A DNA stretch of 64,000 nucleotides from Macrophomina tecta (taxonomy: Eukaryota > Ascomycota > Dothideomycetes > Botryosphaeriales > Botryosphaeriaceae): contig JAKSGN010000010.1 of NCBI GenBank assembly GCA_024180945.1, forward strand, positions 620,001-684,000. The letters run 5' to 3'. Made by a program: the position numbers and the translations under genes. Below, in pieces: positions 2,525 through 38,848 of this stretch (the first letter of the stretch is position 1; each line of letters starts with the position of its first letter). The notes below the pieces were generated by a model, which did no database searches, was not told the DNA's origin, and saw only the letters and a list, made by a program, of their open reading frames with translations.

Positions 2525-3523
2525 ATGGACTCATAAACACCCTCAATTTCTTGCCATAGCACTGGAAATTAAGTGCCAGGAATAACGAACCGGCCGTCAA
2601 GGTTTCCCTGGAAGATGCTCATTTCTACCCTCAGCGCGAGGCCCGCATCATCCTTCTGGGAGGGTGATGGAGTTGGGAACTTGGAGGACCACGAGCTGAA
2701 CTGTTGGCAACGTCAGCCTCGCTTGGCGGGGCTCAGCTGCAGCCTAGCTTGTGTAAAAAAAAAGTAAAAAAAACAGGGTCTGCCTCTTTCACAAAGCTTC
2801 GGAACAACTTAATGGGCAGCTAGCCATCAGATTCCACCCTCTCATAGTCTATCGCGCTCAGTGCGCGAGGCCCACTTATTTCTGCTGAGCGTAGTGTTTT
2901 AGTTGTGCTGCTTGCTTAACTATTTGGTCGCTCCGTATGTCTTGGCGTTCTAAGTCGGGGCGTCTGTCTGAGCGCAGATCAACACGCGATGTTTTCCCCC
3001 GCTTCGTATTCTTGCGACACTGTCCTCTCGGTATCCTTCTGACGACTTTGTTGAGGCTGCGCTGTAATGACTCAACCATCAACCAGCGTAGGCCTTATCC
3101 AGCACTGTTACTCTAGTTGTTTAAGCGAACCAGGGTGTTAACTTTTTTAACACCATCGCTTGCATTATGCCTATCTTTAGGAAATCGGCGCAGTCATCGG
3201 GTGTTACGGACCTACCTGTATATAGAGTTGTTGGGGCACGATCAGCCACCAGGCTGATCATTGCTGAACCTTTTGTCGACTGGGAGTCGACGGGGGGTTG
3301 GCCGAATGGTCTTACGCACCGACTGAAACCCAACACGGTCGGGTCCGTCGTAACATCGGGGTCTCGCACTGAAGTCACTTCCGGGCCCGACACGGACGCT
3401 AACAACGAGCTGTAAGCAGCTGTCGAGATATCCGGACGTTGCTAACAATGATGCAGATATGCGACCGATGGATCGACCGGAATCAGGGTAGTTGCCAATC
3501 CTCCGGATGCAGTTGTTGAGTAG
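2525..3523. other. intergenic, no supportable gene
   Basis: Only short overlapping ORFs without recognisable motifs occur here. The sequence near 3050-3072 (GTTGAGGCTGCGCTGTAAT) resembles the terminus of the Gypsy LTR found at 4540-5028, so a decayed LTR end may lie at about 2990-3072. That assignment is weak. Confidence 0.4.
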
Positions 3524-4474
3524 GAACTCCGCGGCATAGCATCTCGCCGTACGCTGACTTGTGCTTCTAGCATCGTCTTCGTTCATGGACTCACAGGAAA
3601 TCGCGACAAGACATGGACGCATCGCAACGGAATTTTCTGGCCAGGCGCCCTCTCACAAGACTTTCCCCGCGCTCGCATCATGACATTTGGATACGACGCC
3701 GACGTTGTCCGCTTCTAGACCATCGCAAGCTCGAATCGGCTGAACGACCATGGGAAGTCGTTGGCGTACGCGCTTCTCGATCAGCGCGCAAATTAGCCAA
3801 CGTCACGATCATATTCATTGCTCATAGCCTGGGGGGCTTGGTGTGTGAGGAAGCTCTGAACTTCAGCAACAAGAGACAGGACTTGGGAACCGTTCTATCC
3901 AATACGCTAGACATAGTGTTCATGGGTACTCCTCATGGAGGCTCACGTGTGGCAAATTGGGGAAATACTGTGGCGAAACACGTGAATATCTTCCGCGGCA
4001 CAAACCGGGAGATCTTGAGATACCTGCAGCCTGGTTCTTCGGACCTGCAAAGGACTGAAGAGGACTTCCAGCATATGCTTCAGCGAGAAGACATTAAGCT
4101 GAAGATATACTGCTTCTACGAGGCTCTCAAGATGGACGACATGATCGGCAAGATTGTGGAACCAGAATCTGCGATACTCCCGGCATACGACAACTGCAGC
4201 ATCAATGCAGATCATCGGGACATGACGAACTTCACTGGAAGAGCGGACCCGGGGTACGGTCAGGTCCGAGGTGTGCTAGAAAGATGGATGCAAGAGTTTA
4301 AGTAATGTTGGCCGTTCGGATGTTAGCGACGCGGAGAGCGCATCAACGACCGATAAAAGTACTGTTGGGTCATTATACAACGGCCCTGTTTTCAACGGTG
4401 CCATCTCTGGTCGGTATGTGATTCCTGGAGCCCAGACCACTGGCGATACAGTCAATTTCAATTTCCCTGGATAA
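3524..4474 (+). pseudogene. SesB-like alpha/beta hydrolase (lipase/esterase), broken, with amyloid-like C-terminal tail
   Basis: The N-terminal part (frame open from 3524) reads IVFVHGLTGNRDKTWTH and then RIMTFGYDADVV, the hallmark start of the fungal SesB/SERAC1-like hydrolase domain. A TAG at 3716-3718 sits where relatives usually carry Trp, consistent with a TGG to TAG change. A second in-frame TAG lies near 3793. The catalytic centre then continues one frame over (FIAHSLGGLV nucleophile elbow with GHSLGG-like serine; FMGTPHGG) to a stop at 4303-4305. One frame over again, 4301-4474 encodes a Ser/Thr/Asp linker and a Gly/Asn/Phe-rich tail. SesB-type lipases in fungi are effectors or sensors in heterokaryon-incompatibility-like cell-death systems, some triggered by prion-like amyloid motifs. 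At least two stops and two frame changes make this copy inactive as it stands. No start codon could be assigned. Confidence 0.75.
4376..4474 (+). other. candidate amyloid signalling (sigma-like) motif at the SesB C-terminus
   Basis: In the frame beginning at 4301, the last ~33 codons before TAA (4472-4474) contain NGPVFNGAISGRYVIPG followed by an FNF ending. The segment is short, Gly/Asn-rich, C-terminal and separated from the hydrolase by an S/T/D-rich linker, as in the amyloid-forming motifs attached to fungal SesB-like lipases and NLR partners. The match to a particular named motif class is from memory and needs a profile search. Confidence 0.5.
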
Positions 4475-4539
4475 TCTGGGCGCGTTTCGTAGAGAATGCC
4501 AATGCCTGTATCTTTCTCTGCGTTCTATGGCTATGCAAG

Positions 4540-5028
4540 TGTAACGAGCGGGCCTCTGCCTCTAAGGATCCAAACACCGAAGAGGGAGAAAACCTGTCGA
4601 GGGGGTTTTCCTTGAGTGGGTACAAGAAGAGGGTGAGAGCAAGTCGAACACGTGACAAGACTGAGCACTGCGTGCGAAGGCCGTGTTACTAACAATGTGC
4701 TGAATTGTTATTGAAGTTGACCACGAAGGTCAAAGCTATCTAAGGAGTGTGGTTTATATACAAGTAGGAAAGTGTATACAATCTAGTTTCTGATCCGTCT
4801 GCTCTGTCCCTCGGGAGGGCGGTGACCTTGGGAGCAGACAGAGTAGCTTGTCCTGCTCTGGGTGCTCTGTGGTGTTCCGGTCCGAGCGCCTTCGGAGCAG
4901 TGAGAGCACTATCTTGGCGTCACGTGCTTCACGTGAGCGCGCGTGGGTCCTTTCCACGCCGCACCCGAGCTCCCCACTTACTACCTCATCCTGCTGTTCC
5001 CTAACCCTGTGGAGGCTGCGCCGTAACA
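4540..5028 (-). mobile_element. solo LTR of a Ty3/Gypsy element (minus orientation)
   Basis: The 489-bp unit begins TGTAACGAGCGGGCC and ends GGCTGCGCCGTAACA. It matches, reversed, the 5' LTR at 62465-62906. It is bracketed by perfect 5-bp target duplications GCAAG at 4535-4539 and 5029-5033, with no internal region, so it arose by LTR-LTR recombination. It lies 65 bp downstream of the SesB-like pseudogene. Confidence 0.92.
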
Positions 5029-5044
5029 GCAAGCTGCGACTTCA

Positions 5045-5365: not shown

Positions 5366-5573
5366 CAGTCACTAGCGAAATCGGCTTCCGCCCAAGTGCA
5401 GCTGGCAACAAAGCTGGCGAAAGTCTTTGCATCCCACCTTACGAATTTAGTAAGGCGCAATTCTTGTAGGCACGTAATTTGTCACGATACAAGAGAGTAC
5501 TTCTGTATTGCGGTTTGAGCCATAACCCCATGGCTGGTGCGGCTCGGCCGCCCTACCTACCTGTGGTGGTGAC
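5366..5573 (+). repeat. inverted repeat arm 1 (unidentified dispersed repeat)
   Basis: This ~208-bp stretch is the reverse-complement partner of 10090-10311. Shared blocks include CACTAGCGAAATCGGC, AGTAAGGCGCAATTCTTGT and AGAGAGTACTTCTGTATTG. Many differences are C/T or G/A, as expected after RIP. No coding potential is evident. The flanking 5065-5365 holds no gene I can support. Confidence 0.8.
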
Positions 5574-5724
5574 TTGCAGCACAAAACTGCTTACACAACC
5601 AGATCAGTTTCACACAAACCTGATACACCTCTTTAGATCTTCCGCCACATCAGTGGCGCCCTCTACTTGCCGCTAGGGGGCGAATAAACCTATTCCCTTC
5701 CGCTGGAGAAAAATTCAGCTTCTA

Positions 5725-7569
5725 ACGTACCCGGCAAGCGAGCCGCGCAGGCAAGCGAGCCGCGCACCCCACCAAATCTAGCTATATAAATAGCTATAAA
5801 TGTCCAGATTTCTCCCTAACGCCTAAAGCAATCAATTAGAAAATTAGGATTTAACTTCAATCTCATTTGATTCACGCATCGGACACGTCTTAATATAGTG
5901 TCCTGGCTCTCTACAGCGTCCACACCGCCGTTGAGCTGGTATGTTACCACTGTGTCGCGGTCGCGATTGACGCGTTTCCTGCACAATTTGCGCATCAACA
6001 TTAGCCTGATCAATTAGCTGAGATCCCTCTGCCTTCGTTAGGGTCCCTCGCTTCTGTATTCGCTTTTTTTTTTGGCGTTGTTTTCGGCGTGTTACGGCCT
6101 CGTTTGCCTTCCGAAGGGCTGCGTTCTCTGCCTTGAGTAGCTCCAGCTGCGCGGCCATCCGATGCGCACCCTTCAAGAACTGATCCACTGCATCTGTGAT
6201 TGGTGTTGGTGAACTATCTTGATGTCGTACGATCTTGCCCTTAATAAACTCTGTTTGAGATACCATTTGGGCTTGATCAGCTGGTGTTTTCGCAGACCAC
6301 GGGGCTTCGTCTTCGGCTTGGGGAGTAGGTGTCCGAAGCTTCACGTCAAGCTTCGAAATCACAGCATCTGGATCGTACGGGACCAGTCCTGCACCTCTAA
6401 AGCCTCCGCGGATGTTATCTGGTGTAATTGACGTGTCGAATGCGGCCCGGAATGCAGGCAAAAACTCGACCTTCGTGATGTGATTGATGCCGTTGCGCAT
6501 GAGGCCCTCCATTTGCTTGCCGTACGCCTTCTTTAATGGCGCAAAACAACCCACATCGAGAGGCTGCAAGAGATGCGATGAATGCGCAGGCATGCACAGG
6601 GTAATAATGTTGTTCTCCTGGCAATATAGCTCAAATTGCGTGGTTGTATGGCTTCCGTGGCCATCTAGAATGAGCAGGCGTCGCGTCCCTTTCGTACGAG
6701 TCCTTGTGCGCTTGTCGAAGTGCTTAAGCCATTCAAATCCGAGGTCATCAGTAGTCCAGCCATTATCGCTCAATGCGATAGCCCAATCAGATGGTACATC
6801 GTCGCCCTCGTACCATGCGGATAGATGATACTGTCCGGTGAAGATGACGAATGGTGGGATCGCCCAGCCGAGCGCGTTAATTGCCTGGATAGCTGTGACC
6901 CACTTGCGATTACCTGGCTGTATCGATTTAGGTCGATTTCGCCTCTCCGTGCCTGTAACAACTAGTTCGGTCCCGATGACACCCATCATAAAGCCTATCT
7001 CATCGAAGCTGTACGTGTCATCATCTAGGATACCATGCTTCTCTTTAACGTCATGGACAAGCTTGAGCCAGAGCCTGATAACCTCAGGATCCTCCATCTT
7101 AGCCCTCTGATAGTCGTATTTGCGATTAAAACGCGTTTTGAGCTCAGGCTGCCGATTGACGAAATTCCTAGGCCACTTCTCGCCAACCTTGCGACCACCG
7201 CGTCCAGTGAGGATGTGATTGGCCATATCTCCAACACGGCGAAGGCCAGGAGGATGTCCGTGTGAATCTAGGTCCAGAATGTGTCGTACAAGGACCTCCT
7301 CTTCTAGATCTGTAAGAAGCCTTGAGTTGGGTGTGCAATCGCGTCTTGCGCGGATTCCGGCGCGTCGATCGCGAAGGGTGGTCTCAGGCGTGTTATATGT
7401 CTCTGCAGCGCGTCTAACGCTTCAAAATTGACACTAATTGATAGCCCGATTTGCTAGCTGCAAGTTAGCTTCTTTTTGAGCGCGAGAAGCTTGTGGTTGT
7501 TGTTGCATGGTTGTTGCATAAGTGGTTATATTTTCTAGGTCCGGTGCGCGGCTCGCTTGCCGGGTACGT
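5725..7569 (-). mobile_element. Fot1/pogo-like DNA transposon (copy 1)
   Basis: The element is bounded by TA duplications (5723-5724 and 7570-7571) and inverted termini ACGTACCCGGCAAGCGAGCC. The left terminus carries a tandem 17-bp unit (GGCAAGCGAGCCGCGCA twice); the right has one unit only, so the right terminus appears to have lost a repeat. It contains one transposase gene on the minus strand. Confidence 0.9.
5844..7508 (-). pseudogene. Fot1/pogo DDE transposase of copy 1, N-terminus broken
   Basis: A 460-codon open frame (5844-7226) covers the DDE_1 catalytic core with FDEIGF, ILDGHGSH and LLQPLDVGCF supplying the three Asp residues. A basic coiled region (RRKQRQKKKRIQKRG) and a C-terminal CCHC zinc knuckle (CGRCREPGHYIKTC) follow. 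The N-terminal DNA-binding part, from the ATG at 7508, is interrupted by a TAG near 7435 (CAG to TAG type) and then shifts frame before joining the core through a segment starting TLRDRRAGIR. The core looks little damaged, so inactivation seems recent, but the lost helix-turn-helix should abolish terminus binding. Confidence 0.88.
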
Positions 7570-7663
7570 TAACCGAATATACAACGTTGAGGCTTAAAAG
7601 GATGTATTCAATCAAGCTAGGGAAGTCAACCTGGTTGCTCACGGCTTAGAAAGAACATGTGCC

Positions 7664-8327
7664 TCAATGACTATGATTCTCGGATTCCTTAACCGGAGTA
7701 AATATCGTCCTATCTTCTTCATCGTTACTAGTCCTGTAAGATATCCATCCGGCTTTAGGCAAATCGATATCCCGTTCACCAGACAAAAATTTCATAAACA
7801 CACCATGGGTGACAACGACAATATCTCTCCTTTCGTTGCCACGCAAGGCCGCACTGAGTTGCTCGAGCTTCTTTCTCATCCTCCCCGCTCTCAGTGTGAC
7901 TGAATCATCATCTGCTGCGTATTGCCCTGCTTTAACCTGCCAGCCCTCACTCAACCTCTCCAAACCTAAGTTTGGGAATTCTTTCTCCAACGCATGGCGC
8001 TCTGAACCAGTGTCGCAAGGCAACGCGCTCCGTTCCTGCAGATCAGGTTCTAAAGTGAGCTCAACGCCATTTTCGATATCGAATCCCGAGGAAGAGTCAT
8101 AGTATCGTTTGTCAAGCACGTGAGGAAAACCTGTAAGGGAGGTTTGGATGGTGCGTCGAAGTGGGGAACTCAGAATCACTGCGATTCGCTCGGGATGAGG
8201 GAACGAGCTGACCAGCTGAGCAGCTTGTGTGACCGAGGGCGGTTAAGGGTGGGTCAAGACGAGAAAAGTCCTTGGAGACGTTGTGTTCTGATTCAGCGTG
8301 GCGGACGAGATAGATTATTGATGCCAT
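7664..8327 (-). pseudogene. histidine phosphatase (phosphoglycerate mutase-like), 2-bp deletion
   Basis: Translation from the ATG at 8327 gives IIYLVRHAESEHN, the RHxE active-site motif of the histidine phosphatase superfamily, then PPLTALGHT. At about 8235 a CA-repeat stretch (GGTCACACAAGC) appears to have lost two bases, shifting the frame. The rest continues in another frame (7664-8179; ILSSPLRRTIQTSL, VVVTHGVFMKFL with the second catalytic His). The reconstructed length, about 220 residues, is normal for the fungal family. Substrates of this subfamily are unknown. A sequencing error in the dinucleotide run is a live alternative, in which case the gene would be intact. Confidence 0.82.
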
Positions 8328-8504
8328 CCCGCTTGAGAGTTATGGACGATGGACTGGTAGAGGGAGCTCACTGCTTCTTGACTACGTGAAAGCGGAAGCC
8401 AAGAAATCGCGCAATATATGCCAAGAATTGCGATCGAAGCCTGTCAAGCATCACTCGTACTCTTAGGGTTCAAGGTTCCTTGTTACGACCATGGACAGGA
8501 CAAT

Positions 8505-8746
8505 GATGATGATGATGATGATGATTCATACACCCCGCCGGCCTCCACGGGCCATAGGGAAGAACTAACACTGAGTAGACGTTTACCTACATTAACTCCC
8601 GGTTCATTCAAAGCCCTCACTCTCAGGAACAAAACAGGGGAAAACCACGAGTAGGTGTGAAGCCGTCCGACGGTGGATGAGTTAGTAGAGTAGATAAAGA
8701 AGGGCTCCGCGGGTGGCAGAGTCAGGTTGAGAATGAAAGATGGATC
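8505..8746 (-). mobile_element. severely 5'-truncated Tad1-like LINE (family 1)
   Basis: This 242-bp stub has the family 3' end (GGCCGGCGGGGTGTATGAATC on the minus strand) and an (ATC)n tail at 8505-8525. It is flanked by exact 13-bp target duplications TGGACAGGACAAT at 8492-8504 and 8747-8759. It carries no coding sequence. The same tail and 3' end recur at 12132 and 14644, and on the plus strand at 48570-48617. Confidence 0.88.
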
Positions 8747-8759
8747 TGGACAGGACAAT

Positions 8760-9142
8760 CTCCGCCGTTGACAGTCGAGATCTTTGTGCTGATGACTAAG
8801 CAGACTTGAAGTGCCGGCACCAGGAAGCTACCCTTGCTTCAACAACAGTGGTAGCTTATCCTGTATATTGCAAGTGAAGTGCCTGCTCGTGATATGTCTA
8901 AGTGCCTTGGCTCGTTTACCATTGACCTTTATGTAGTGTTCGGATTGTTCTGCATCTGATATCGCTCCTTTGGTTCAGTGGACCAGCTTTACCTCAATCA
9001 TCACTTATGTTTTAGAATTGAATAATTATACTTCATCCGAAACATCTCGAATTTCTGAGTTATTTTGCTTTTGTCGTGACGGCTGTAGGTCACAAACAGT
9101 GACAGCCACGTAGTGACACGGTTCTCGACGTGATACTTTCCA
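8760..9142. other. intergenic, downstream of the GFA gene
   Basis: No ORF with recognisable motifs is present. The sequence probably contains the 3' untranslated region of the minus-strand gene ending at 9143. Confidence 0.4.
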
Positions 9143-9785
9143 TCAATAGCAGCCTCCAGGGAATGGCTCAGCGAAGCGCACCTCTTCACGCTTTCCTTCT
9201 TCGTAGGTAAGATTCCCCACGTAAAAAATCCACTTCTTATTCGCCCAGTCAATGAGGTCGATGCCTTCAAGCGTGATGGCATTCACGCTCACGTAGTGAA
9301 GAGGCTTCCTATCGAATCCCATGATATCCTCCAATGGTTTCGATCTCCACACCTTCTGCAATTTGCCATCGCCACCGTCCCTGCCTGCCCACTTGTCGAC
9401 ATAAAGATCTTCTTGCACCCAGTTTCCACCGATACGAAAGGTCTTGACACCGCACTTCTTGCAAAAATACCATCCAATCTTGCTACCGAATACCCGATAG
9501 CAACCAAGCTCTTCAAAAGTTGCTGGAGATGTCATGACAAAGTCTTCATAGGCGTCGATAGGTCGGCAATGAAACATGCCTAGCTGTTATGATCATCAGA
9601 ACTAGGAGAAATAGGAAGCAGGTTTAGGGCCTTCGAACCTTGTGGCAAGTGGTACAGTTGCACTTGTAGATACGGACAGACTTTGTAAAGGAATGAGGGC
9701 TCGTGCTTGGAGGAAGCGTGAGGCGCATCTGGTACTTGACATCACCGCAATGGCAGGAGCCGTAATAGACTTCGGTGGGAGACAT
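9143..9785 (-). CDS. GFA/CENP-V family zinc protein (glutathione-dependent formaldehyde-activating-like)
   Basis: Two exons, 9785-9639 and 9583-9143, with a 55-nt intron 9638-9584 (GT...CAG), encode 195 residues in one frame from the ATG at 9785. The zinc-binding pattern of the GFA/CENP-V fold is complete: C11-H-C13, C42-N-C44-x2-C47 in exon 1 and C90-x2-C93 in exon 2; exon 2 opens with LGMFHCRP, as expected after CHK. Bacterial Gfa was proposed to join formaldehyde to glutathione, but most fungal homologues have no proven substrate. It lies alone between a pseudogene and transposons and still reads cleanly, which suggests selection or recent arrival. Cytosolic location is likely because no signal peptide or membrane segment is seen. 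Confidence 0.88.
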
Positions 9786-10089
9786 GATGCGTTTGAAGGC
9801 TAATTTGAAGGTTACAATGGCTTGTCAGATAGAAATGGAACTGGAAGGATTCGTTGTTGGCAGAGGTGATGGTTTGATAAAACGCAAAGCCAATGGTGCA
9901 CATTATGTGTACGCGTGTCGCAGGCTGAGGCCTGGTATCGGCACCGGCTACGCCAGGTGCCAAGAGCGGAGCTTCGGTGGTCCGGATCAATTCCCGATCC
10001 CATCGGGCAACCTAGAGGAAGGCCTTAAAAGCGCTGCATACTTACGAATAATATCTAACTGGAATGAAAGTGATATAGTACTGGATTAT
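9786..10089. other. intergenic, upstream of the GFA gene
   Basis: This presumably holds the promoter of the minus-strand GFA gene. A short plus-strand ORF through 9775-10101 has no recognisable motif and overlaps the first exon antisense, so it is not called. Confidence 0.4.
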
Positions 10090-10311
10090 CGCCACTGCTA
10101 GTAGGGAGGTGGCCGACCCGCTTTGGCCACACCCTTGTGGGCTCAAACTACAATACAGAAGTACTCTCTTCTATCGTGGCAAATCACGAGCCAACAAGAA
10201 TTGCGCCTTACTAGATTCATAAGGCGGGGTGCCAAGACCTTCGCTTAGATGCGGGGTATAGCCTTGTCGCGGCTGCAATTGGGCGGATGCCGATTTCGCT
10301 AGTCACTGTAC
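10090..10311 (-). repeat. inverted repeat arm 2 (partner of 5366-5573)
   Basis: This is the reverse complement of the repeat at 5366-5573, with one extra ~23-bp stretch (about 10242-10265) absent from arm 1. Together the arms enclose 4.5 kb containing the Fot1-like copy, the phosphatase pseudogene, the LINE stub and the GFA gene. Confidence 0.8.
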
Positions 10312-10447
10312 TTGCTTTTGGAAAAGCGTTGGCGAAAACCTTACGCCTCTGCTCACGCTCTCCCGTGTAATTCATCCTACAACCTTTGATCCTTGCAATG
10401 CAATTACATTGGGCTGTAACAACTGGCCTGTGTATAATAAATGGCCG

Positions 10448-12117
10448 TCAAAATATCAGAACAGAGCAATAACTCCCTAGCCCTAGTGCCTCTATCTCAT
10501 CCTCTGCAGCTTCTACTTCAGTCTTCCTTATTCTTTTATTCTGCGCCATTGTAGGTGTAGCGCTCTCGCGCTTCGAACCACGTTTCCCTTTAGCCATAAC
10601 AGCTTCCTTTGCGTCACGCTTCGCTTGTGCTTGAACAATGTCCTCATAGCACATTACTTTCGCCTTCCCGACCACCGTTGACCTGGCCGATTTGCGGCAA
10701 TTGCTTTCATTGTTCTGCTCGAACAAGAGCCGGTTCTCATCGAGAAGGAGAGCGCACTCAGCAAAGCACTTTCGAGCAGCATTGGCCAGCTTACGTAGGC
10801 GCTTTCTGCTCCGACCATCGAGCGTATGCGCGTCCTGTTCGATTTGGTCATGCAGCAAAGTGAGAGCCTCCAATGTCACGGGCGTTTGGATTACTTCGCG
10901 TGGACAAGATTCCGCCTTCGCCTTACCTTCCTGAGCGATACGCAGTTCGGATAGTGGCCTTTGGATGCCTCCAAGTACCTTGTCTGGGCTGAATGGATAC
11001 AAACCTACCTTTGCCCAGCCTGACTTGATGTTTCGCGGGGTAAGTGCCTGTTCGCGTGCACGGCTATAGAGAGAAGTAAAATGCTGCTTTCCAACTGTAT
11101 TTGCACCTCCTCGATATAGCCGCTCAACCTGTTCTCGATATGCCGTCTTCAGTGGGCCAAAAACTCCAACGTCACAGGGCTGGAGCTTGTGAGAGGCGTA
11201 AGACGGAATGCGGCAGAGAATGATGTTGTTTCGAAACAATACTGCATGTCTTCGAGTGACTCATGCGTCCCGAAGCCGTCGCAGATAAGAATCCGTGGCA
11301 TCTGGTTCGCTCATGATTTAGTCTGCGGGTCAAACACGTGTTTAACCCAGTGCAAGCTGATCCTGGAGTCCGTGTATCTAGATTGAGAGCACGCAAAATG
11401 CCACCCAGGAGTTGGATACGCAGTCCATGCGTTTCGATGAGTTGCTGCTGGCCAGATTACCAGTGGGAAGAGACACCTGCCATCTGTAGAAATGCACTCG
11501 ATCGCCGTCACGGTTGTCCGCTTGACGCCTGCGCCTCTATAGCTTTGCAGGTCGTCCTTATCTACCAGGACCTTGAGGGAAGCAAGCATGCTTAACATGA
11601 CCCCCGTTTCGTCCATATTGTAGACGTTCTCCGGCACAATGACGGGGTCATGTAGCTCCTTCCCGATGGTCTCAAACCAGTGCGTTATCTTATCGTAGAT
11701 GTTATTGTCGTGCCGGTTCCAATCTAGCGCCTTGACTCTTTTCGCTTTAAGCTCGGGATGACGATTGCAGAAGGCCTGCGGCCAGTTCTTGCCGGGAGTG
11801 CGGATCGTTTCGTCGGTCGCAAGAGCCTGAAAGACGGAGGAGCGCTGGCGGGCGATGACGAGTGCTAGCGAGCGTAGGTATTTGATCGGAATAGGGAAGC
11901 CATTGTTAGACATCCGCAACAGGTACTCGGCAAGGGCTTTCTCTTCCGAAGGGCTGAGGTACTGTTGGCGCTGCGCTTTATCTTCTCTCGAAGGCCGTCC
12001 GTGCGCGCGGTGCCATAGCATAGAGATAGGCACATCACTAGATGCTGATAGGGCGGCGTACGTTTTGGGTTTCGAGGGCACAAGGCCTTCAGACAGCACA
12101 GCACTGGCGGGATCCAT
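10448..12117 (-). pseudogene. Fot-type (pogo superfamily) transposase, second subfamily, two lesions
   Basis: From the ATG at 12117 the frame runs through an N-terminal DNA-binding region and the first catalytic Asp (NMDETGVML) to a TGA near 11306 (CGA to TGA type, within PQTKS-stop). In the same frame LICDGFGTHES (second Asp) follows. A one-base loss in an A-run near 11238 then shifts the frame to 10448-11239, which carries SHKLQPCDVGVF (third Asp) and a basic C-terminus ending in a K/R-rich stretch. Sequence and C-terminus differ from the 17-bp-unit Fot elements elsewhere in the window, and there is no zinc knuckle. Terminal repeats could not be identified; the 5' side abuts a LINE tail. 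Confidence 0.82.
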
Positions 12118-12505
12118 TCTACGATGCTGATCATGATGATGATGATGATGATTCATACACCCCGTCGGCCTTACCAGACCATAGGGACAAGGAACGCTAT
12201 TCTACGCTAAGCTACATTGGGATCCCGGTTCATTCGAGGCCCAGCACTCTGTATATAAAGAAACTACAATTTCCTCCTGTTCAACAATCTGAAAACAGAC
12301 GGACAAAAGCACAAAAAAAAATTAACGATAAACAGAATACTAGAACAAACGAAATAAAATGTAAAAGTAGAGCTATCCTCCATACACCCCTTATACCATC
12401 CCCTTCGAGACCACTTCTCGAGTGCTGTCAGTCCCTGTAGCGACGTGACGGCTGGTTGGAGAAGGGATTAATTTGTTTTGAGAAGGATTAAGCTCTCGGT
12501 CTCTA

Positions 12506-30282: not shown

Positions 30283-32133
30283 ACGTGTTCCACAAGCGAG
30301 TGCATCACACAAGCGAGTGCATCACCTCCCCCACCAAAACGCGTCTCCTCTCTTTAAGACGCGATGCCTCAACCAACTCATCCTTAATCATTAAATAATG
30401 AAGGCGCAGTTATTCTAGCTGTTTCAGCCCTCCAGAAAAACCAAATTCCGACCGCCCGAGGCGCTGCAAAGGAGTACGCCGTCCACTACTCGACCGTGAA
30501 TCGGCACGCTAAAGGAATCCCTTCCCGACGCGATTGCGCACCTAACTCTCGAAAGCTCACGCCTACCGAAGAATCCGTTATCGTCGAGCGTATTCTCGAC
30601 CTAGATTCGCGAGGGTTTCCGCCCCGACTCGAAGCCGTTAGAGATATGGCGAATAAGCTCCTCGCTGACCGCGCTAGAGGCTAGGTTGGCAAGAACTGGC
30701 CTATTAACTTTATAAAGCGGACCCCTGAGCTCAGAACACATCTGAATCGTAAGTACAATGACCAGAGGGCTAAATGCGAGGATCCAGAGCCTATTACGGG
30801 CTGGTTTAACCTCGTACGGAATATAATCGCGAAGTACGGGATCGTAGACGACGATATCTTCAACTTTGACGAAGCGGGCTTCCTTATGGGCGTTATTGCA
30901 GCCGCAATGGTTGTCACAGCCTCCGAACGACGTGCTCGACCAAAGACAAGGCAGCCGGGCAATCGCGAGTGGGTTTCGGTGATCCAGGGAGTCAACGCGA
31001 AAGGGTGGGTGATCCCGCCGTTTCGTAATATTTAAGGGATAATACCACCTTTTAGCTTGGTACAGCGACGATATACTAGGCGATTGGGTTATCGCAACGA
31101 GCGATAACGGTTGGACGATAAATAAGCTTACGTTCTAGTAGCTGCAGCACTTCGAAAAGCACACGAAGGATCGTACAACTGGAGCATATCGTCTTTTAAT
31201 TCTTGACGGCCACGAGAGCCATCATTCGGCTGAATTCGAGTCTTTTTGCCAGGAACATAAGATTATCACGCTCTGTATGCCTGCGCATTCATCCCACCTC
31301 CTCCAACCACTTGATGTCAGTTGTTTTGCGGCCCTTAAGAAGGCGTACGGGAAGCGGATCGAGGGCCTGATGCGAAACCACATCAACCACATCACAAAGC
31401 TCGAGTTTTTACCAGCGTTTAAAGCGGCGTTCGAAGCCGCCTTCATACCGCAGAATATCACAGGAGGATTCCGAGGCGCAGGATTAGTCCCACATAATCC
31501 AGACGCCGTGATTTTAAAGCTTGATGTTCGACTTCGGACGCCAACGCCACCCTAGACCGAGGCTACGGCTTGGGACTCCCAAACACCACACAACCCAGCT
31601 GAATTAGTCAGTCAAACTGAGCTTATTAGGGGTAGGATTGCACGGCACCAGGATAGCTCACCAACGCCAATTAACGAGGCGTTGAGTCAGCTCGCAAAGG
31701 GGGCTCAAATGATGGCGCATTCAGCTGTTCTGTTGCAGGCCGAAGTCGCGGGCCTTCAAAAGGCAAATGAGGCCGCAACAGGCCGTAAAAAGCGCAAGAA
31801 GAAGCGAATCCAGTAGCGAGGGACGCTTACGATTTAAGAGGGCCAGGACTTAATTAATAAAGCTGGTGGTAATGGGCAGATTTCGCAGGAAATGCGACAA
31901 GGTGATGCGCAATCGGATGGGGCTGCAATAAAGCGACGGCGATGTGGGCAATGCGGCGAAGTTGGGCATAATTCTCGCACATGTCAAAAAGATGCAGAAA
32001 CCACTATAGAATAGAACGTATATTATAGATAATCGATTTTATAACGCATTGTGGAGTAATTCATACTTAAAGTGGTAGAGGTTTAATGGGGTGATGCACT
32101 CGCTTGTGTGATGCACTCGCTTGTGGAACACGT
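30283..32133 (+). mobile_element. Fot1/pogo-like transposon (copy 3), heavily RIP-mutated
   Basis: Bounded by TA (30281-30282, 32134-32135). Both termini begin ACGTGTTCCACAAGCGAGTG and contain CAAGCGAGTGCATCAC twice at a 17-bp spacing, followed by (C)CACC. The only Fot1-like copy here with its gene on the plus strand. Confidence 0.93.
30364..32014 (+). pseudogene. Fot1/pogo transposase of copy 3, many stops
   Basis: From the ATG at 30364 an early TAA (CAA type) follows within ten codons, then the DNA-binding region (STVNRHAKGIPSRRD; VERILDLDSRGFPP). TAG after DRARG at 30682 and further stops at 31033, 31138, 31552 and 31816 interrupt it, with frame changes around 31025. Catalytic blocks survive in fragments (FNFDEAGFLMGV; ILDGHESHH; LLQPLDVSCF) and a CCHC-like end (CGQCGEVGHNSRTC) is visible. 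It is closest to copy 1 in sequence but far more decayed. Confidence 0.85.
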
Positions 32134-32751
32134 TAGCGCAAATAGAGCGGTATTAATTAGGTCGAATAATTTGCTACTAGCCCTTTCTTTAGAAATTTAG
32201 CGCTATATACGGTAGTTTATAACTTCCTAGCCGACGTATTCGTGGATAAGAGGTTTTATTAATACCTCGATTAGCCTGCTAAGTTATCCTTTAAGAAGAG
32301 TCTTATTTTGTTCTAGGCTTGTAGTCGAGTATTTTATCGGCCGAAGACCACGGTCTCTGCTAAGACTATTTAGTAAGTTTAGTCTGCGCTTTCTGGTTCT
32401 CTACATAAGCTAAAGTGGTTATTAGGTTAAAACTTCGCGCGCCCGGTTAAGTGCATTACGCCACAAGTGCTTCCCGAGAACGGGAGTCGTTCTTCTCTCG
32501 ACCTTAGAAGTTTCGGTGGTACGTCTAACCTATCAGGTTCTCCGAGGATCTTAGACAGGGCTTTCTCGGTGCGACGGCACAGAGCGAAAAAAAAAAAAAA
32601 AAAAAAAATTACATGCCACCCATATTCGCATGCTTCAGTAATTTGCAGTATTTACTGGTGTCATTCTATTAACTCAAGGAGCTGAAAGCTCCGCGAGAGC
32701 GTTTTCTTCTAGACGGCAAAAGTCATCACATGCGGGACTCTGGATCGAATC
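32134..32751. other. AT-rich, RIP-like intergenic with poly(A) run
   Basis: TA-rich sequence without ORFs of note. A run of 22 A lies at 32587-32608. The last ~140 bp are likely the 3' untranslated region of the minus-strand gene ending at 32752. Confidence 0.5.
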
Positions 32752-34488
32752 TCAAACCCGCCCACCAAACAAGTATAACGCATCTGCAAAACACACAGCC
32801 TTCTGCCTCTCGAACAATTGCCTCTCCCACTCCTCCCCCGACATACCTTGTGCCTCCTTCGCCCTCGTTGCTGCGGCTTGCAGCTTCACCAAGTCGGCCA
32901 GAACGTATAAGTCCGCATTCCGGCACACCTTTTCGTTCATCCACCGTCGCACATGCTCGACCTGTGCCTCCACATCATCTGACCATGAAGATATTGTAGT
33001 CGCCTCCGTCGTCGCCGCGGCACAACGCCAGATCACAGTCCGCATCAATGCATCCCGCCTTCCGTCGAAAGCTGCGATGTCACGCTCCCGCGCGAAATGC
33101 CCGAGGCAGAGGAGCTGCGGGAGATAGTCGTCGTGCACATTAGGGAGGAGTTTCGATGTATGACGGATAAGTTGAACAAGGTCGTGGAAGAGATCGGGTT
33201 TGAGCGCAGTGATGGAGGAGGCGATGAGGGGGGCGGGAGGGGGGGAGGGGACAGCGTCATCGGGAGGGTGGATGTCGGGCAACGCGCAGGTACTGGCGTA
33301 CGAAGTGGTTGTGGCAGCGACGCTGCAGGATAGAGAAGGGTGAAAAGGCGGGCTAGATAATGGTAGAAAGCTGTTCGGAACAATGGAACAGGACGTTGTC
33401 TCAGTAGTATCGCCAGACGATGTGGAGGCAGCTGCTGCGGCGCGAAGACGTCGTTCAAGACTCCCTGCTGACTCTCTCGCGGGCTCTTCTGTGGCACTGC
33501 CAACACTCTGTGGTCTATTTATTGCTTCTAGCTGATGCTCGCGAACGTGAGCGTCAAGCTGGGTTGGAAACACTTCCGTCAGGATGAGCTCTGAGCCAAA
33601 CGGGCTATCTGGCACCTGCATCTCGTCCGATTGATCAGACAGAGCTTCGTGCGCTTTGCGCTTCAGAGATCTTTCAATTTCACCGCTTGTAGTTTCAACA
33701 ATCGGCGATTCGAGATCAGATTCAGGCGAGTCGGCTTTCTCTCCAATCGGCAGTGGTGATAGGACCGCATCATCGTACCGCGGAGGCGCATCTTCGACAA
33801 GCGGGTTCCATGAGGAGCCGTGTGTATCGTGGGGATAGTCCGACCAACAATTTACAGCAGCGCGCCATCCATTGGTGTAGACTGAGCGATAGTCAATGGC
33901 TGGAGTGGTTGTCTTCGGCCATTCTCTTCGTAATTTCGAGCAGATGTCGGACAGGCGGAGCTGTACGGATTCATCAGCCGTAAGGTATAAGTCGAGACTA
34001 TTGGCTTCTGAAAGAGCCTGTAAGCAGGATAGGATTTCGGCAGGGACGCCAGTCACAGGCTTCTGCAGCTTGCGACGCGGGACAGGCATCACAACGAAGG
34101 CTGGAGCGTCAAGGCCGCAGCGTACTTCTAGATGATTTTCGCCCATGTACTGGCGCGCATCGTCAGACCCATTCCTGGCGGTATGTATATCCACAGACAT
34201 TGATAATTGTTCTGCGGGGATGATCAAATACATGTTGCGGGGACGCTCGGAGGTTGAGGCATGAAGTTTGACCGGAACGTGGATATTGATTAACACGCGC
34301 TGTTCAAGAGCCGCATCCCGTCCAATATGCAGAGTTAAATTGGCCTTGGCGTTGTCCGGTCCACAAAGTCGTCCAAGATACCTCCGCCTGCCCGTTCTTT
34401 TGTCCAGCCATCCCACCATTACCTGTTTACTCAAAACTGGTTCCAACTGACCTCCGATGACCTTAAGACCGCGGTCGGAAGAACCCAT
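32752..34488 (-). CDS. conserved fungal protein of unknown function, 578 aa (paralogue 1)
   Basis: The frame has its first ATG at 34488 (GAACCCAT context); codons upstream look non-coding. The N-terminal ~220 residues form an ordered-looking region with YLIIPAEQLSMS and, near 120-180, LDLYLTADESVQLRLSDI. A Pro-rich hinge holds PPRYDD near residue 235, followed by an acidic/Ser-rich region with KRKAHE, a likely nuclear signal, near 276. The C-terminal ~200 residues look helical (DLFHDLVQLIRHTSKLLP; EHVRRWMNEKVCRNADLY). I do not recognise the family. The layout matches the neighbour at 36193-37320, so the two are probably diverged paralogues. The intact 1.7-kb frame argues for function. Confidence 0.75.
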   Translation of the reverse strand: MGSSDRGLKVIGGQLEPVLSKQVMVGWLDKRTGRRRYLGRLCGPDNAKANLTLHIGRDAALEQRVLINIHVPVKLHASTSERPRNMYLIIPAEQLSMSVDIHTARNGSDDARQYMGENHLEVRCGLDAPAFVVMPVPRRKLQKPVTGVPAEILSCLQALSEANSLDLYLTADESVQLRLSDICSKLRREWPKTTTPAIDYRSVYTNGWRAAVNCWSDYPHDTHGSSWNPLVEDAPPRYDDAVLSPLPIGEKADSPESDLESPIVETTSGEIERSLKRKAHEALSDQSDEMQVPDSPFGSELILTEVFPTQLDAHVREHQLEAINRPQSVGSATEEPARESAGSLERRLRAAAAASTSSGDTTETTSCSIVPNSFLPLSSPPFHPSLSCSVAATTTSYASTCALPDIHPPDDAVPSPPPAPLIASSITALKPDLFHDLVQLIRHTSKLLPNVHDDYLPQLLCLGHFARERDIAAFDGRRDALMRTVIWRCAAATTEATTISSWSDDVEAQVEHVRRWMNEKVCRNADLYVLADLVKLQAAATRAKEAQGMSGEEWERQLFERQKAVCFADALYLFGGRV

Positions 34489-35099
34489 GGGATTTATTAA
34501 TAGAAAGCAATCGAGGAATGTAATAAATCTAGAAGCGGTAGCGCCTGCGAAAAGGGTTAATGACGATGCCAATAACGCGACAGTTGGGTGAGAGGGGTAG
34601 GGGCATAGGTAACAGCTCCGTACGCAACAGACCACCGCAGCCAAGGTATCAACACCGACGACGGGCCGATGGGGCGCAGACTCTAGGACAGCTGGGCACT
34701 ACGAGAGTGCTGGAGTCGCCACTAAAAGCAAGCGCAAGGCACCAACACAGCGTCGGGCTGATAGGGACGTAGGTGGCCGAATCGCGCAGGACGATGCCTG
34801 TGAATGGATTGAACGATGTTGGTAGAGTGTATTCTAATGTATCGCGACGAAAGGTTTGGATGGAATGATGGATATTGATGTTATCAAGGCGGTTGTTGTT
34901 GGTTGTGTAGATGAATCGGAGCTGCTATGAGAGTTCTCCGCGCCAGCCAGGAAGTCTTGGCAACGATTAATAACCTCTTGGCTCTTCAAGCACGTGACAT
35001 TAGAACGCTAATCGCTTTAGTGGCTTCTATATACAACCGAGGAGCTCCGAAGAGCAAGCGCGTCGCTTCGCAGCCTAAAAGTGCTTCTGGTCTGTACTA
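34489..35099. other. upstream region of the 578-aa protein gene
   Basis: No ORF with motifs; presumably contains the promoter and 5' untranslated region of the minus-strand gene. Confidence 0.4.
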
Positions 35100-35904
35100 A
35101 CGTAAGTTCTGATCTCAGTTCGCCAAGTTTGGCGTCGTCGGCGGCCGAATAATATATATTTTACATGCCTTGTTGTATCCATTGGGAAACTAACTGCATC
35201 TCTCAACGACGTCCACTCTTCCCAAGCATCATTGGCCGGAGGCTTGAGCTCCAACACTTTGATTGTCGGCCGAAGGTGAGCTCGGTCGAGGCGACGATGT
35301 ACAGGGCTCGTGGTGTCAGAAACTCAACCACCTGCAATTTAGCGGCGGTGTACCTGGCCTTCAGGTTGGTGAAGGATGTGAGCAGCTGCGCCGAGGCAAC
35401 CGTTGCCGAGGCCTCGAAGGCGCGCTGTCGGCCTCGAGCGTCGCGTCCATGGAGGCGTGAGGGAGGCACTGTGGTCGAGCGTCTGCAAAGGTGTCCACAG
35501 AGGTGTTTGGCGTTGGGCGTTACGCGTTTGGCAGTTGCGCGTTTAGTAGCTGCACGGCGGAGAATCTCGTTATCGCCGATAAGGTCGTGGTTTGAGATAA
35601 GGAGGTTGTGGCCACAACCTCGGCGATACTCAACACAAGCCACCAGCCGACCGACCGCCGGCCCTGCCTGCCAGGCTCCGTGCTCAATTTCCCGCTGCCC
35701 GAGATCTTGAGGAGGCCGAAAGCCACCTGCTCGCCAGCGCCCATCTCGTCCTGGGTTGCCACGAGCTCGAGCTGCTGGCGGCCAAGCTCCAGCTGACGCA
35801 CGCCAACCCCCACGACGCCCGCCGCCCACCTGCTTTTCCTCGACCGCACCTGGTCCAAGCTCGCCAGCCTCACGCAACACTCCAACGCTTCCGCCTTCGA
35901 TCAC
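35100..35904 (-). pseudogene. unrecognised broken gene
   Basis: A minus-strand stretch reads VASAQLLTSFTNLKARYTAA and LQVVEFLTPRALYIVAS, then, after a one-base frame change near 35255, KVLELKPPANDAWEEWTSLR and SFPMDTTRHVKYI. It looks like the remnant of a conserved protein, but I cannot name the family. On the plus strand 35690-35950 another protein-like stretch (LLFLDRTWSKLASLTQHSN; DHFVDRYAGFPFSV) overlaps its upstream part, so strand and limits are uncertain. Confidence 0.35.
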
Positions 35905-36192
35905 TTCGTCGACCGCTACGCCGGCTTCCCATTTAGTGTCCGGGTGAGGTAGTCAGCGTGGTAGATGGCAGAGGGGGGCGGTGATATAGCATGTCGGTCG
36001 AGCCACCGGGGTCGTCTCGGCAGACGCGCGGAAGTAGGGAACGGATACACTTGCACGTTTGCGGGTAAGGTCACGTTGCAGTCATAGGATCGGAGGCGTG
36101 CAAGTAAGAGCCAAGATTAGATTTGATCGCGGAACCAGAGACACGCCGGATGACGCGTAAAAGCGTGTGGCAACAACCTATCTGCATCTACG

Positions 36193-37320
36193 CTACAAGT
36201 TTGCCGAGAAAGTCACTTCCGCAAGGTCATCCCAGATCCGTTTCTCCGCTTCTCTCATCTCGTCTGTAACCCAGTCAGTAAGCTCCTCCTTAACGTGCGG
36301 CAGCTGCTCGTCGAGACGCAAGTCTATTAGATCAGAAGTACTCGTATGCATATCTTCAACTTGGTCATCCAACTCCTGCTGCAGCGCGTCAGTCCTCTCG
36401 CCCTGCTCCTCTATCTTCTTGGTCAGATCCAGTCTTAGCTGTGACCCTTTTTCCTCGATGCGCTCGTCAAGTCTGGCCAGCATCCGCGCCTCCAGATCGC
36501 GCAGTTGCCTTTCAGACTCTTCACGCGACCGACGTGCTTCTTCAGCGATGTAGTGTCGTGTCTCTACCCTACACTCCTCCAGGACCTGCTTGCGGAAAGT
36601 CTCAAAGGCTTGCAGTTGGCCGGGCGGACTCTCCGCCCGTCGCTTCTTACCGGCCCGTGTGGAGGGAACATTGGGGGGCGGAGTGAGTGCAAGCTCATCG
36701 TACGAAGGCGGGCTTTCGGCGGCCAGGCCGTGCGAAGGTGGCGCCAGCGGGTTGCCACCCAGGATCCTGCCACCCTGACCAGAGTAAAGTGTGGGCAGGC
36801 TGGAGAAGCGGAGCGAGGGTCTCCAGGAGCGATCGGCCGCCATGCGGCTGAGAGCCTGAACACGGGCAGTGGAGAGGTTCGAACGCGCCAGATACAAGGT
36901 GATCTCATCCGCACCAGCCATCTCATGGAGCATGTCCAAGTCCTCGGAAGAGGCCTTGTTCCTGGGAGTAAGCCCAGTGTGAGCCGGGCCAACAACGAGC
37001 CCTCCAGGCTTTGCCAACGCTAGGCGGATGCCGACGGGCTCCGCTGCGAGCGCCGACGCGACATGCTCAGGCACGTCTGTCGGGCTGTCAAAAGATGTAA
37101 TGTGCTCGGGGTGGATAAGGACGTAGATGAAGAATTTTTTTGAGCCTGCCGGCTTGAAAGCCACGGGCAGTCGCAGCCGGAACGTCGCAGTCCTGTGCTG
37201 CAGATCGAACGCGATGGCGAGAGACAGCGAAGGCGAAGTGGAAGAGGAACCGGCGTCCGGGGAGGAGCGCCATTGAGTAACGACGCGGACATCAGCAACG
37301 ACGAAGGGTTCGGCATCCAT
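36193..37320 (-). CDS. conserved fungal protein of unknown function with coiled coil, 375 aa (paralogue 2)
   Basis: The ATG at 37320 starts a domain resembling the N-terminus of the 578-aa neighbour: FFIYVLIHPEHITSFD aligns with its YLIIPAEQLSMS block and ADEITLYLARSNLSTARVQ with LDLYLTADESVQLRLSD. The Pro-rich hinge PPSYDE near residue 204 and KKRR nuclear signal near 225 follow in the same order. Residues about 240-345 are a highly charged coiled coil (RRSREESERQLRDLEARM). A canonical intron (37367-37322; GTATGT, GCTGAC, CAG) lies two bases before the ATG, most simply in the 5' untranslated region. A nuclear, oligomerising protein is a reasonable guess; function is unknown. Confidence 0.75.
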   Translation of the reverse strand: MDAEPFVVADVRVVTQWRSSPDAGSSSTSPSLSLAIAFDLQHRTATFRLRLPVAFKPAGSKKFFIYVLIHPEHITSFDSPTDVPEHVASALAAEPVGIRLALAKPGGLVVGPAHTGLTPRNKASSEDLDMLHEMAGADEITLYLARSNLSTARVQALSRMAADRSWRPSLRFSSLPTLYSGQGGRILGGNPLAPPSHGLAAESPPSYDELALTPPPNVPSTRAGKKRRAESPPGQLQAFETFRKQVLEECRVETRHYIAEEARRSREESERQLRDLEARMLARLDERIEEKGSQLRLDLTKKIEEQGERTDALQQELDDQVEDMHTSTSDLIDLRLDEQLPHVKEELTDWVTDEMREAEKRIWDDLAEVTFSANL

Positions 37321-37367
37321 CCTGAGTAGAATGACGTGTCAGCAGCGGAACAGGAGTACACACATAC

Positions 37368-38848
37368 CTGGAAAGCTGAGCCCCTCTGACGTCGCAGAGG
37401 ATCCCACCCACCCAGGCTTTGATTAGGAGTAGCCTTGACTCCAGAGAAGAGGCGGCCCTCGCGCACGAACTGCCCGACCGGCGGGAACGATAGCTTCGAC
37501 GACGGCGGCTGCGGCCGTGACGCCGCATCCCCTACACAGACCCCAGCTCTTCTGCCAAAGGGACCCCGGAGGACGTTTGGCAGGTAGAAAACTGGCCAGC
37601 CGGCCTGCTGTCGAATAACACTCGCCCCCCGACGGGTCAGGAAGTAGTACGGCACGGCTACCCGCCGGACGCGGATACCTTTGGACTGACCCTATTCTCG
37701 AATCCACGGGAGAAGCGAGTTGCAAAATTGGTCGGCAGGCGTGGTGCGATGGACGAGCGCGGAATAGAACTATGCGGGGGATGATTGAGGAGATGAAGAC
37801 GCCTCGAAGGGGCGCGCGTTGATAAGTGCGGAGGCGGAACGGAACCATGCTTTTCCGGATTTAGGCAGCCGTCCTCCCCGTCCGCCGTCCGAGGCTTCGA
37901 ACGCACAACAGACATCCGTCATGGCCCGTGCATAGTACCACGTGATTTCGCGTAAACGCGTTCCGAGTCACCCCATTTTCCCTACCGGCTTCTCCGCACT
38001 TCTCACTACTAACTTATCTTTACAAGAGTCACTTTTTGTGTGCAAACAGTCACCCTTTGGGCGGGTGTGGCCCGTAACGTCACAAATCGTCCCGGATCTT
38101 CCATGCAATAGACAGGGGATCCCGTCGAACATCCGCCAAGCCTTCTACGGCCCATTTACGAATCCCCTCTTCTCCTCCTCTTCTGCTGTGCCGCAATGCT
38201 GCCTTCGAAGTACAGGCTGTCCTCGCCTCGCACGCCCGTTGCCTTGTACGTTTCCTCCTCTGCTTGGAATACTGATCATTCCCCGCCGTACCTTACGCGC
38301 CCGCCGCCTCCTCGACCTCCTTGACATCCTTGACCTCGAAATACAGGCTATCTCCCACTACACCGAAGAATGCTATCCTCGTCGCTATTACCGCAAACCT
38401 GACGAGCTTAGGCAACTAGCACCCACATAAAAAATATCTATTCTCCAACAATATTAGAGTCAGGACGAGACTTCTAATACACCGTTATAATACGCTTATC
38501 GTCTAGCCACAAGGACTTTATGACCCCACGGCGAGATCCCGCAGGGGAAGAAGGCCCACAGGGACAAGTGAAAAATCCAGGAAACCGTCTTTGGGCGCAG
38601 AGGACTATAGCCTAGCGGAATAATCGTACACAGACGCATGTTGGTGTTCGCTAGGTGGCTCGAGGAGTAGGATGGCCCGAGGACTAGTAGAACACGTTAG
38701 CAAGAATCTTTTTATTCATTGCTACGACGAATAACCGTTTTGTAGCCCAGCCCCATCTGCCCTCACATCCATTGCTTTGCTGATGCGAGTGGTATCAACT
38801 AAAATATTATAGGCGCGCCTTGCAAACGTCTTCACCGCCCAGGCTACC
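37368..38848. other. intergenic; one unrecognised plus-strand ORF
   Basis: An ORF at 37942-38430 (162 codons) has no motif that I recognise; its C-terminal part (DLEIQAISHYTEECYPRRYY) looks protein-like. From 38440 to 38720 the sequence becomes AT-rich with RIP-like TA content. No other gene can be supported. Confidence 0.35.

Follow-up and report, generated by a model that had tools for sequence, protein, structure and literature searches.

A decayed SesB-like lipase locus as a probable truncated copy of a pogo/Fot-type transposon with a predicted NLR/amyloid/lipase module

The sigma locus of sesA, sesB and het-eN and the other sesB/STAND pairs (PMC3321046) are described as lipases with a C-terminal motif that are encoded beside STAND/NLR genes that bear this motif N-terminally. 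The receptors of these pairs include NB-ARC and TPR proteins. The arrangement recurs in the elements described below, the receptors of which are predicted to be of a similar type. The same two-component logic, in which a NLR passes its signal to an effector through a shared short motif, has been described for HET-S/NWD2 (PMC9815663, PMC5485727). Among mobile elements, ToxhAT is a 14-kb TIR transposon of Dothideomycetes, similar in size to the elements described below, and has a gene with Patatin and TPR regions that its authors assign to the NLR family (PMC6737239). Starships are likewise described as mobile elements able to carry NLR genes (PMC12134995), and fungal DNA transposons with TET/JBP genes (PMC12730594) share with the present elements the carriage of host-type genes as cargo.

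In the current analysis we have followed up a broken gene for a SesB-like lipase in a stretch of 64,000 nucleotides at C10:620001-684000, referred to as the window. The sequence-only reading of this gene had described hydrolase pieces in three frames and a C-terminal tail of the amyloid-signalling kind, left over from a lipase and NLR system. The pieces are present at the places given (3524-3718, 3571-4305 and 4280-4474), and the tag in which the gene ends also occurs on lipases of other fungi. The match of the middle piece to DUF676 is weak (E 0.0017; 18.3 bits against a cut-off of 20.3), and an open genomic copy passes this cut-off with 25.5 bits. Decay of the gene is confirmed and is more extensive than the displacement of the middle alone that had been proposed. 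Compared with a full genomic copy, the gene has two in-frame TAG codons within the first matched stretch and two frame changes, and an LTR-like insert splits its first exon. The tail is indeed in phase with the frame that opens at 3524, but this frame starts inside the inferred second intron. The half that is missing is also not the effector, as had been suggested, but the receptor: the lipase is broken yet largely present, and the left NLR is cut to 17 motif residues and a stop codon, with no further NLR piece found in the 64,000 nucleotides at the sensitivity used.

The surroundings of the gene have received several insertions. The one previously called a solo LTR starts 65 bp past the lipase stop and has the LTR-like ends and the 5-bp duplication that fit such an origin, but matched no LTR family. 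It is followed by a nested transposon of a different kind, with ends CAGTCACTAGCG, a DDE_1 transposase at 5844-7421 (minus strand) and a zinc knuckle, for which copy B on contig C21, described below, provides the empty site. No inverted-repeat end has been found for the window copy of the cargo transposon itself. RIP was considered as the cause of the decay and rejected, the transitions against copy B being balanced (45/45) and the RIP indices unremarkable. A PIF1-like helicase in broken frames (PF05970, PF21530) lies at 292-2530 on the minus strand, adjoins the point at which the transposon copy breaks off on its left side and is possibly part of a Helitron.

Used as a query of 34 residues, the tail has six matches in the genome of 54.1 Mb and 37 contigs, namely itself and five others of 78-91% identity (E 4e-15 to 4e-11). 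Lipase and tail lie in one open frame of 318-320 residues in four of the five other copies, and the fifth, on contig C18, is broken. With a full copy of 319 residues as query, four open frames of lipase and tail, 91-100% identical to the query copy, are found on C21, and the lipase matches beyond these four, the C18 relic and the window are distant (32-40%). The union of hydrolase and tail in one frame, which the earlier reading had proposed to look for, is seen in four genomic copies and also in the homologues used for the tail profile. The nearest named homologues of the lipase include those of Melanomma, Lindgomyces, Zopfia and Macrophomina. A structure alignment of 36 of the 120 homologues shows the serine of HSLGG and a C-terminal histidine to be invariant. 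The model of a homologue with 86% identity (P0001; mean pLDDT 71.8, pTM 0.73) matches lipases of the alpha/beta-hydrolase fold (best E 7.5e-7, TM 0.50), and its residues 262-310, which include the tail, are predicted to be disordered (pLDDT about 35).

Two further loci of this kind may be mentioned. The C18 relic (C18:703451-707761, L024) is a second decayed copy comprising a broken lipase, one NLR motif and a fragment of an element end, and a 98% copy (249 bp) of the LTR-like insertion of the window lies about 1.8 kb from it. At C29:536949 (L015) a lipase named SesB-like from its sequence runs into a NLR-like region in a single frame of 1649 residues.

Alignment of the flanks, about 10 kb each, of the six lipase copies has revealed that the lipases of C21 sit in a larger conserved block. 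Its outer parts are copies of a single gene in inverted orientation, with tandem repeats of 126 bp. Each of the four blocks has a NLR gene on either side of the lipase, and both NLRs start with the tag of the lipase, which agrees with the system type proposed earlier. Each NLR is preceded by a short first exon, for example MSIFQGNLDGQFVIPGTHTSAGGTTNFNFG, that follows the pattern of the lipase tail GPVFNGAISGRYVIPGAHTTGGTVNFNFPG. The genome-wide search for NLRs with this motif, suggested by the sequence-only reading, gives eight N-termini in the elements (two per block) and one at the C18 relic, besides the remnant of 17 residues in the window.

The NLR of copy B has TPR repeats and DUF7779 in open frames of up to 1484 residues. 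NB-ARC is not among the 25 families listed of the 27 for the copy B frame without exon 1, and Pfam NB-ARC is listed for the homologues P0123 and P0133, with identities of 67% and 62% to its residues 1-380. The receptors of the elements are, by homology, predicted NLRs of the NB-ARC-TPR type. One of them comprises 22 tandem TPR units of 42 residues, with a mean DNA identity of 88-91% and variation at few positions; variable repeats are known from the sensors of fungal NLRs (PMC4986451). At least one long open NLR frame (1106-1484 residues) is found in each of A, B and C. The left NLR of copy C looks frame-broken, and both NLRs of copy D show a stop that is read as intronic. Matches of at least 73% to the NLR occur only in the elements, the C18 relic reaches 49% and matches elsewhere 44% or less. 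Lasiodiplodia is named among the nearest NLR homologues. Taken with the lipase homologues and the introns in the genes, this suggests a filamentous ascomycete, probably a Dothideomycete, as the source of the DNA.

The order of genes in the blocks is a leftward NLR, a rightward lipase, a leftward transposase and a rightward NLR, within 11-14 kb, and all four blocks are encoded on C21. The ends of A, B and C are inverted repeats starting ACCTCCCCCCCGGTG... with TA on either side, and D has this end pattern on its left and right. Allowing up to three mismatches, this pattern occurs 20 times in the genome, always on C21, and eight of the occurrences are the ends of the four elements; the reversed control gave none. 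A probe of 601 bp from the end has 31 matches, 28 of them on C21, and some belong to short elements, about 1 kb in length, that have both ends. The transposase of copy B, sited between the lipase and the right NLR, has DDE_1 and, as HTH of the CENP-B/Tc5 type, HTH_Tnp_Tc5, the combination expected of a pogo/Fot transposon of the Tc1-mariner group, and that of copy A is interrupted. Among the 80 of 567 candidates scored, matches of at least 88% to the B transposase are confined to the four elements and the window, the next ones being 74% over part of the protein and then 67%. From its position between them, this transposase is probably the one matched to these inverted repeats. The open frames of at least 220 residues in copy B are the two NLRs, the lipase and the transposase, together with two overlapping frames of the TPR array; a tyrosine-recombinase captain of the Starship type is not among them, as judged by this inventory. 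A lipase paralogue at C21:122284 was considered as part of a second cargo element and this was rejected, the repeat ends at 108421-109414 enclosing only about 1 kb.

Table 1. Coordinates of the decayed copy in the window, of the insertions around it and of the full-length elements on contig C21
Feature	Position	Strand	Length or basis
Left NLR first-exon remnant, MSIFQGNLDGRFVIPGT then stop	2569..2622	-	own-genome search with the NLR N-terminal motif, 89% over 18 positions including the stop
Pieces homologous to the left NLR-lipase interval of full-length elements	2570..3201 (2570-2742, 2927-3201)	+	blastn to C21 copies
Lipase exon 1, split by LTR-like insert	3167..3411	+	visual comparison with copy B, GT..AG signals; inferred splice sites
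LTR-like insert TGTTACGG..CGTAACA, 5-bp duplication TCGGG on both sides	3202..3355	.	absent in C21 copy B
Lipase intron 1 (inferred)	3412-3456	+	GT..AG signals and copy B, by eye
Lipase exon 2 (..GIRVVANPPDAVV..)	3457..3519	+	visual comparison with copy B; inferred splice sites
Lipase intron 2 (inferred)	3520-3570	+	GT..AG signals and copy B, by eye
Lipase exon 3, broken (in-frame stops, two frame changes); HSLGG and NADH still legible	3571..4474	+	
C-terminal amyloid-like motif common to NLR N-termini, NGPVFNGAISGRYVIPG..NFNFPG	4370..4471	+	
LTR-like insertion TGTAAC..GTAACA	4540..5028	.	duplication GCAAG at 4535-4539 and 5029-5033
Nested second, different TA-flanked inverted-repeat transposon	5366..10308	.	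inverted ends; exact ends by eye; uninterrupted in C21 copy B
DDE transposase of the cargo transposon itself, decayed	10309..12138 (matches 10451-11239, 11224-12069)	-	91-92% against copy B
Repeat entered by element B on C21, here in an uninterrupted copy; TA target 32178-32179	32076..37945	.	
Full-length element A	C21:200745-214612		13868 bp
Full-length element B	C21:429565-442326		12762 bp
Full-length element C	C21:754823-766963		12141 bp
Full-length element D	C21:934253-945227		same end pattern bounds about 11 kb

The joined flanks of B match a single site of the genome, where there is one mismatch and TA is present once. This site lies in the window itself at 32161-32198. The flanks of this site are similar to C21 over 111 bp on the left (92.8%) and over 5.8 kb on the right (98.9%). 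Position 32178 is a paralogous empty site, the window holding an uninterrupted copy of the repeat into which element B has jumped. The joined flanks of A and C have no match in the genome. The 5.8-kb repeat (32178-37945) holds frames of 648 and 381 residues without a Pfam match at E<=0.001.

C21 comprises 1.57 Mb, or 3% of the assembly, and has 25 of the 81 transposase matches listed in a search with a query from C21 in which 80 of 567 candidates were scored. It is possibly an accessory chromosome or a compartment rich in transposable elements; a search for the telomere pattern gave no matches.

The blocks could also have arisen by segmental duplication of a NLR/lipase cluster of the ordinary kind, the transposase and the inverted repeats being incidental nested insertions. 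Fungal NLR and effector genes are described as clustered (PMC3321046), the transposases are abundant on C21 (the 25 of 81 listed) and the neighbourhoods of A and B share further repeats, which lie outside the elements at non-matching positions. Such an origin is nevertheless very unlikely, as the collinear homology between A, B and C breaks off abruptly at the TA-flanked inverted repeats, B has an empty site with a single TA, short elements have the same ends and the transposase is selected like the cargo. The window locus is probably what truncation and decay have left of a transposon carrying a predicted NLR/amyloid/lipase cell-death module, a nature that is absent from the sequence-only reading. 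Such an origin would explain why the window has a lipase at all and why full-length copies are encoded on another contig.

The sharing of the motif between lipase and receptors has been examined with a profile built from 38 lipase tails of other organisms and metagenomes, which were picked by a loose motif pattern from the first 45 of the 120 listed lipase homologues. The N-termini of the eight element NLRs and of the C18 one score 20-40 bits with this profile, and the best of 1800 shuffled sequences 10.9. At E<=0.01 it also matches the N-termini of 16 of the 120 homologous NLRs, and none of 2400 shuffles (best E 0.23) or 120 transposases; this search included four of the eight element N-termini and the later one all eight and that of C18. 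In a comparison of profiles, the tails match the eight unselected NLR N-termini of this genome with a probability of 97.6 (E 4e-12). An earlier value of 98.8 (E 1.3e-16) is not independent, the NLR N-termini having been picked by the tail profile with four own ones added. The tail as a chance sequence was rejected on the basis of its six genomic matches and of profile scores far above those of the shuffles. Of the two outcomes that the earlier reading had named as refuting it, a tail lacking any profile match and the want of an orthologue with hydrolase and tail in one frame, neither was obtained.

NLRs with the motif are named from Zopfia, Delitschia, Lentithecium, Curvularia, Phaeosphaeria, Tricladium and Colletotrichum. 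Four species have a lipase match and a NLR match on contigs of equal size, and in Zopfia and Tricladium the motif is found on both. The lipase of Delitschia on such a contig (P0050) has no motif in its last 75 residues, and a NLR of Trichoglossum, whose gene tag is consecutive with that of the lipase, gives no match to the tail profile at E 10, being too diverged for it. Lipase and transposase matches on contigs of equal size are absent among the best 60 of 120 each.

A profile search of the tail against the amyloid signalling motifs of fungi had been suggested. The tail is shared with NLR N-termini and has no match in Pfam or among the published patterns that were tried. At E<=10 there is no match to any family of Pfam, NACHT_sigma included, although the filters of HMMER may drop weak matches; a sigma NLR of Fusarium graminearum, used as a control, scores 37.7 bits with NACHT_sigma. 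Simplified patterns based on the consensus published for sigma, PP, PUASM and GDQN occur in none of 58 motif instances, and HRAM, judged by Pfam alone, gives no match. Five strings of the motif do not occur in the text of the literature searched. Among the exact submotifs of sigma, both GxGxQF (A) and GGTQN (B) are absent from the 58 instances, and GGTxN, which resembles submotif B, is the third segment in 28 of the 38 lipase tails, in 10 of the 16 homologous NLR N-termini and in all four own ones given. It is on this resemblance, and on the sesB/STAND pairs with NB-ARC and TPR described in PMC3321046, that one could regard the motif as a divergent sigma motif and the system as a routine pair of which the transposon setting alone is unusual. 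We consider this possible, though doubtful in view of the Pfam results, the absence of submotif A and a probability of 0.1-0.3 against a thin set of three near-identical sigma sequences. The motif is a strongly diverged sigma variant or else forms a new class; it may be a fungal amyloid signalling motif of a class so far undescribed.

Comparison of the copies reveals purifying selection on all three kinds of genes. The dN/dS of the lipase is 0.05-0.15 at a dS of 0.22-0.42 in the four copies, that of the transposase 0.09-0.17 in three of the four (the interrupted A being left out) and that of a NLR stretch 0.16-0.32 in seven of the eight, the left one of copy C lacking the anchor. The lipase and NLR subfamilies are found in this genome only in the elements and relics. 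Passive capture of cargo is disfavoured because the cargo is under selection. A module that is mobile yet functionless, in which a transposon captured a cluster and its cargo is drifting, would agree with the broken copies, namely the window, the C18 relic, the transposase of A and probably the left NLR of C. With the low dN/dS of lipase and NLR, four open lipases and a long open NLR frame kept in each of A, B and C, drift of this kind is improbable.

The left and right NLRs differ at a dS of 0.13 in B and 0.10 in D and of 0.33 in A, and the NLRs of different elements at 0.16-0.63. Gene conversion between the inverted arms would account for the likeness in B and D, A being unlike them. The NLR N-terminal motifs of B (right, C21:434818-434922) and D (942240-942344) are identical over 35 residues, and other parts of these elements differ.

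The full-length copies comprise inverted repeats that enclose two divergent NLRs of the predicted NB-ARC-TPR type, a SesB-like lipase and a DDE transposase. We consider it likely that the locus derives, by truncation and decay, from such a cargo-carrying transposon of the pogo/Fot type, with TA as target, and we propose that the cargo works in the following way. The TPR repeats of the NLR would sense a ligand and the ligand-bound NLR would oligomerise, whereupon its N-terminal motif may fold as an amyloid seed. The C-terminal motif of the lipase would copy the amyloid fold of the NLR motif, and the lipase so switched on would damage the membrane and kill the cell. Seeding of the motif by the activated NLR and conversion of the lipase tail are suggested by analogy with HET-S/NWD2 and the sesB/STAND pairs; ligand sensing, amyloid folding and templating, lipase activity and killing are predicted. 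The transposase and the inverted repeats would move the whole module, and the elements may be mobile at present.

What the element gains may be a host-benefit immune cassette or a selfish weapon, and both fit. The ends of one small DNA transposon here enclose a whole predicted pathway, and this bears on the reason for the side-by-side occurrence of genes for amyloid-signalling receptors and effectors. With the module inside one small transposon, an empty site for one copy and subfamilies found only there and in relics, the proposal can be tested by the comparison of strains.

Sister transposases of 67% identity are encoded at 816 kb and 1399 kb of C21 in a block that is 99.97% identical over 7001 bp (C21:813200-820498 and 1396500-1403850; L043, L044). 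By their sequences, its other genes are a CK1-like kinase and a HET-NACHT-type NLR. Copies of this NLR are found beside a sister transposase at C6:33-38 kb (99%) and, likewise adjacent to a transposase, at C6:3.06 Mb (62%); those of C27 (94%) and C37 (87%) have no adjoining transposase among the matches listed. The block of kinase, sister transposase and NLR is perhaps a second NLR-carrying transposon. A tentative extension, which we hold to be possible at most, is a pogo lineage specialised in NLR cell-death modules, with NB-ARC-TPR receptors and an amyloid-tagged lipase of a new motif class in one branch and a HET-NACHT-type NLR with a CK1-like kinase in its sister, the modules serving as mobile weapons or immune cassettes. 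If this is true, the modules would give an advantage to hosts bearing the element, or to nuclei bearing it in fused hyphae, and would be a fungal counterpart of mobile abortive-infection systems.

The present system differs from the sesB/STAND pairs as described in the available text of PMC3321046 in its motif, which is unmatched to the sigma or PP patterns, in the two inverted NLRs flanking one lipase and in the TIR/TA transposon around them. Compared with the accounts of HET-S/NWD2 (PMC9815663, PMC5485727), the effector here is a lipase and not a HeLo protein, the receptor has TPR in place of WD repeats and the function of the system is predicted. Starships, as portrayed in PMC12134995, are giant and use a tyrosine recombinase, whereas the elements here are of 11-14 kb with a DDE transposase and a TA duplication. 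The TET/JBP transposons have a different cargo, said to aid escape from silencing, and pogo is not among the lineages named in the available part of PMC12730594. A NLR inside an element of the pogo/Tc1 type was not found in the literature searched, by title or abstract opening. ToxhAT is of the hAT type and, in the text available of PMC6737239, has a single NLR-like gene and no pair of receptor and effector with a shared motif. As an element with one NLR-like gene, it is the nearest precedent found in the literature searched for the NLR-carrying transposon described here.
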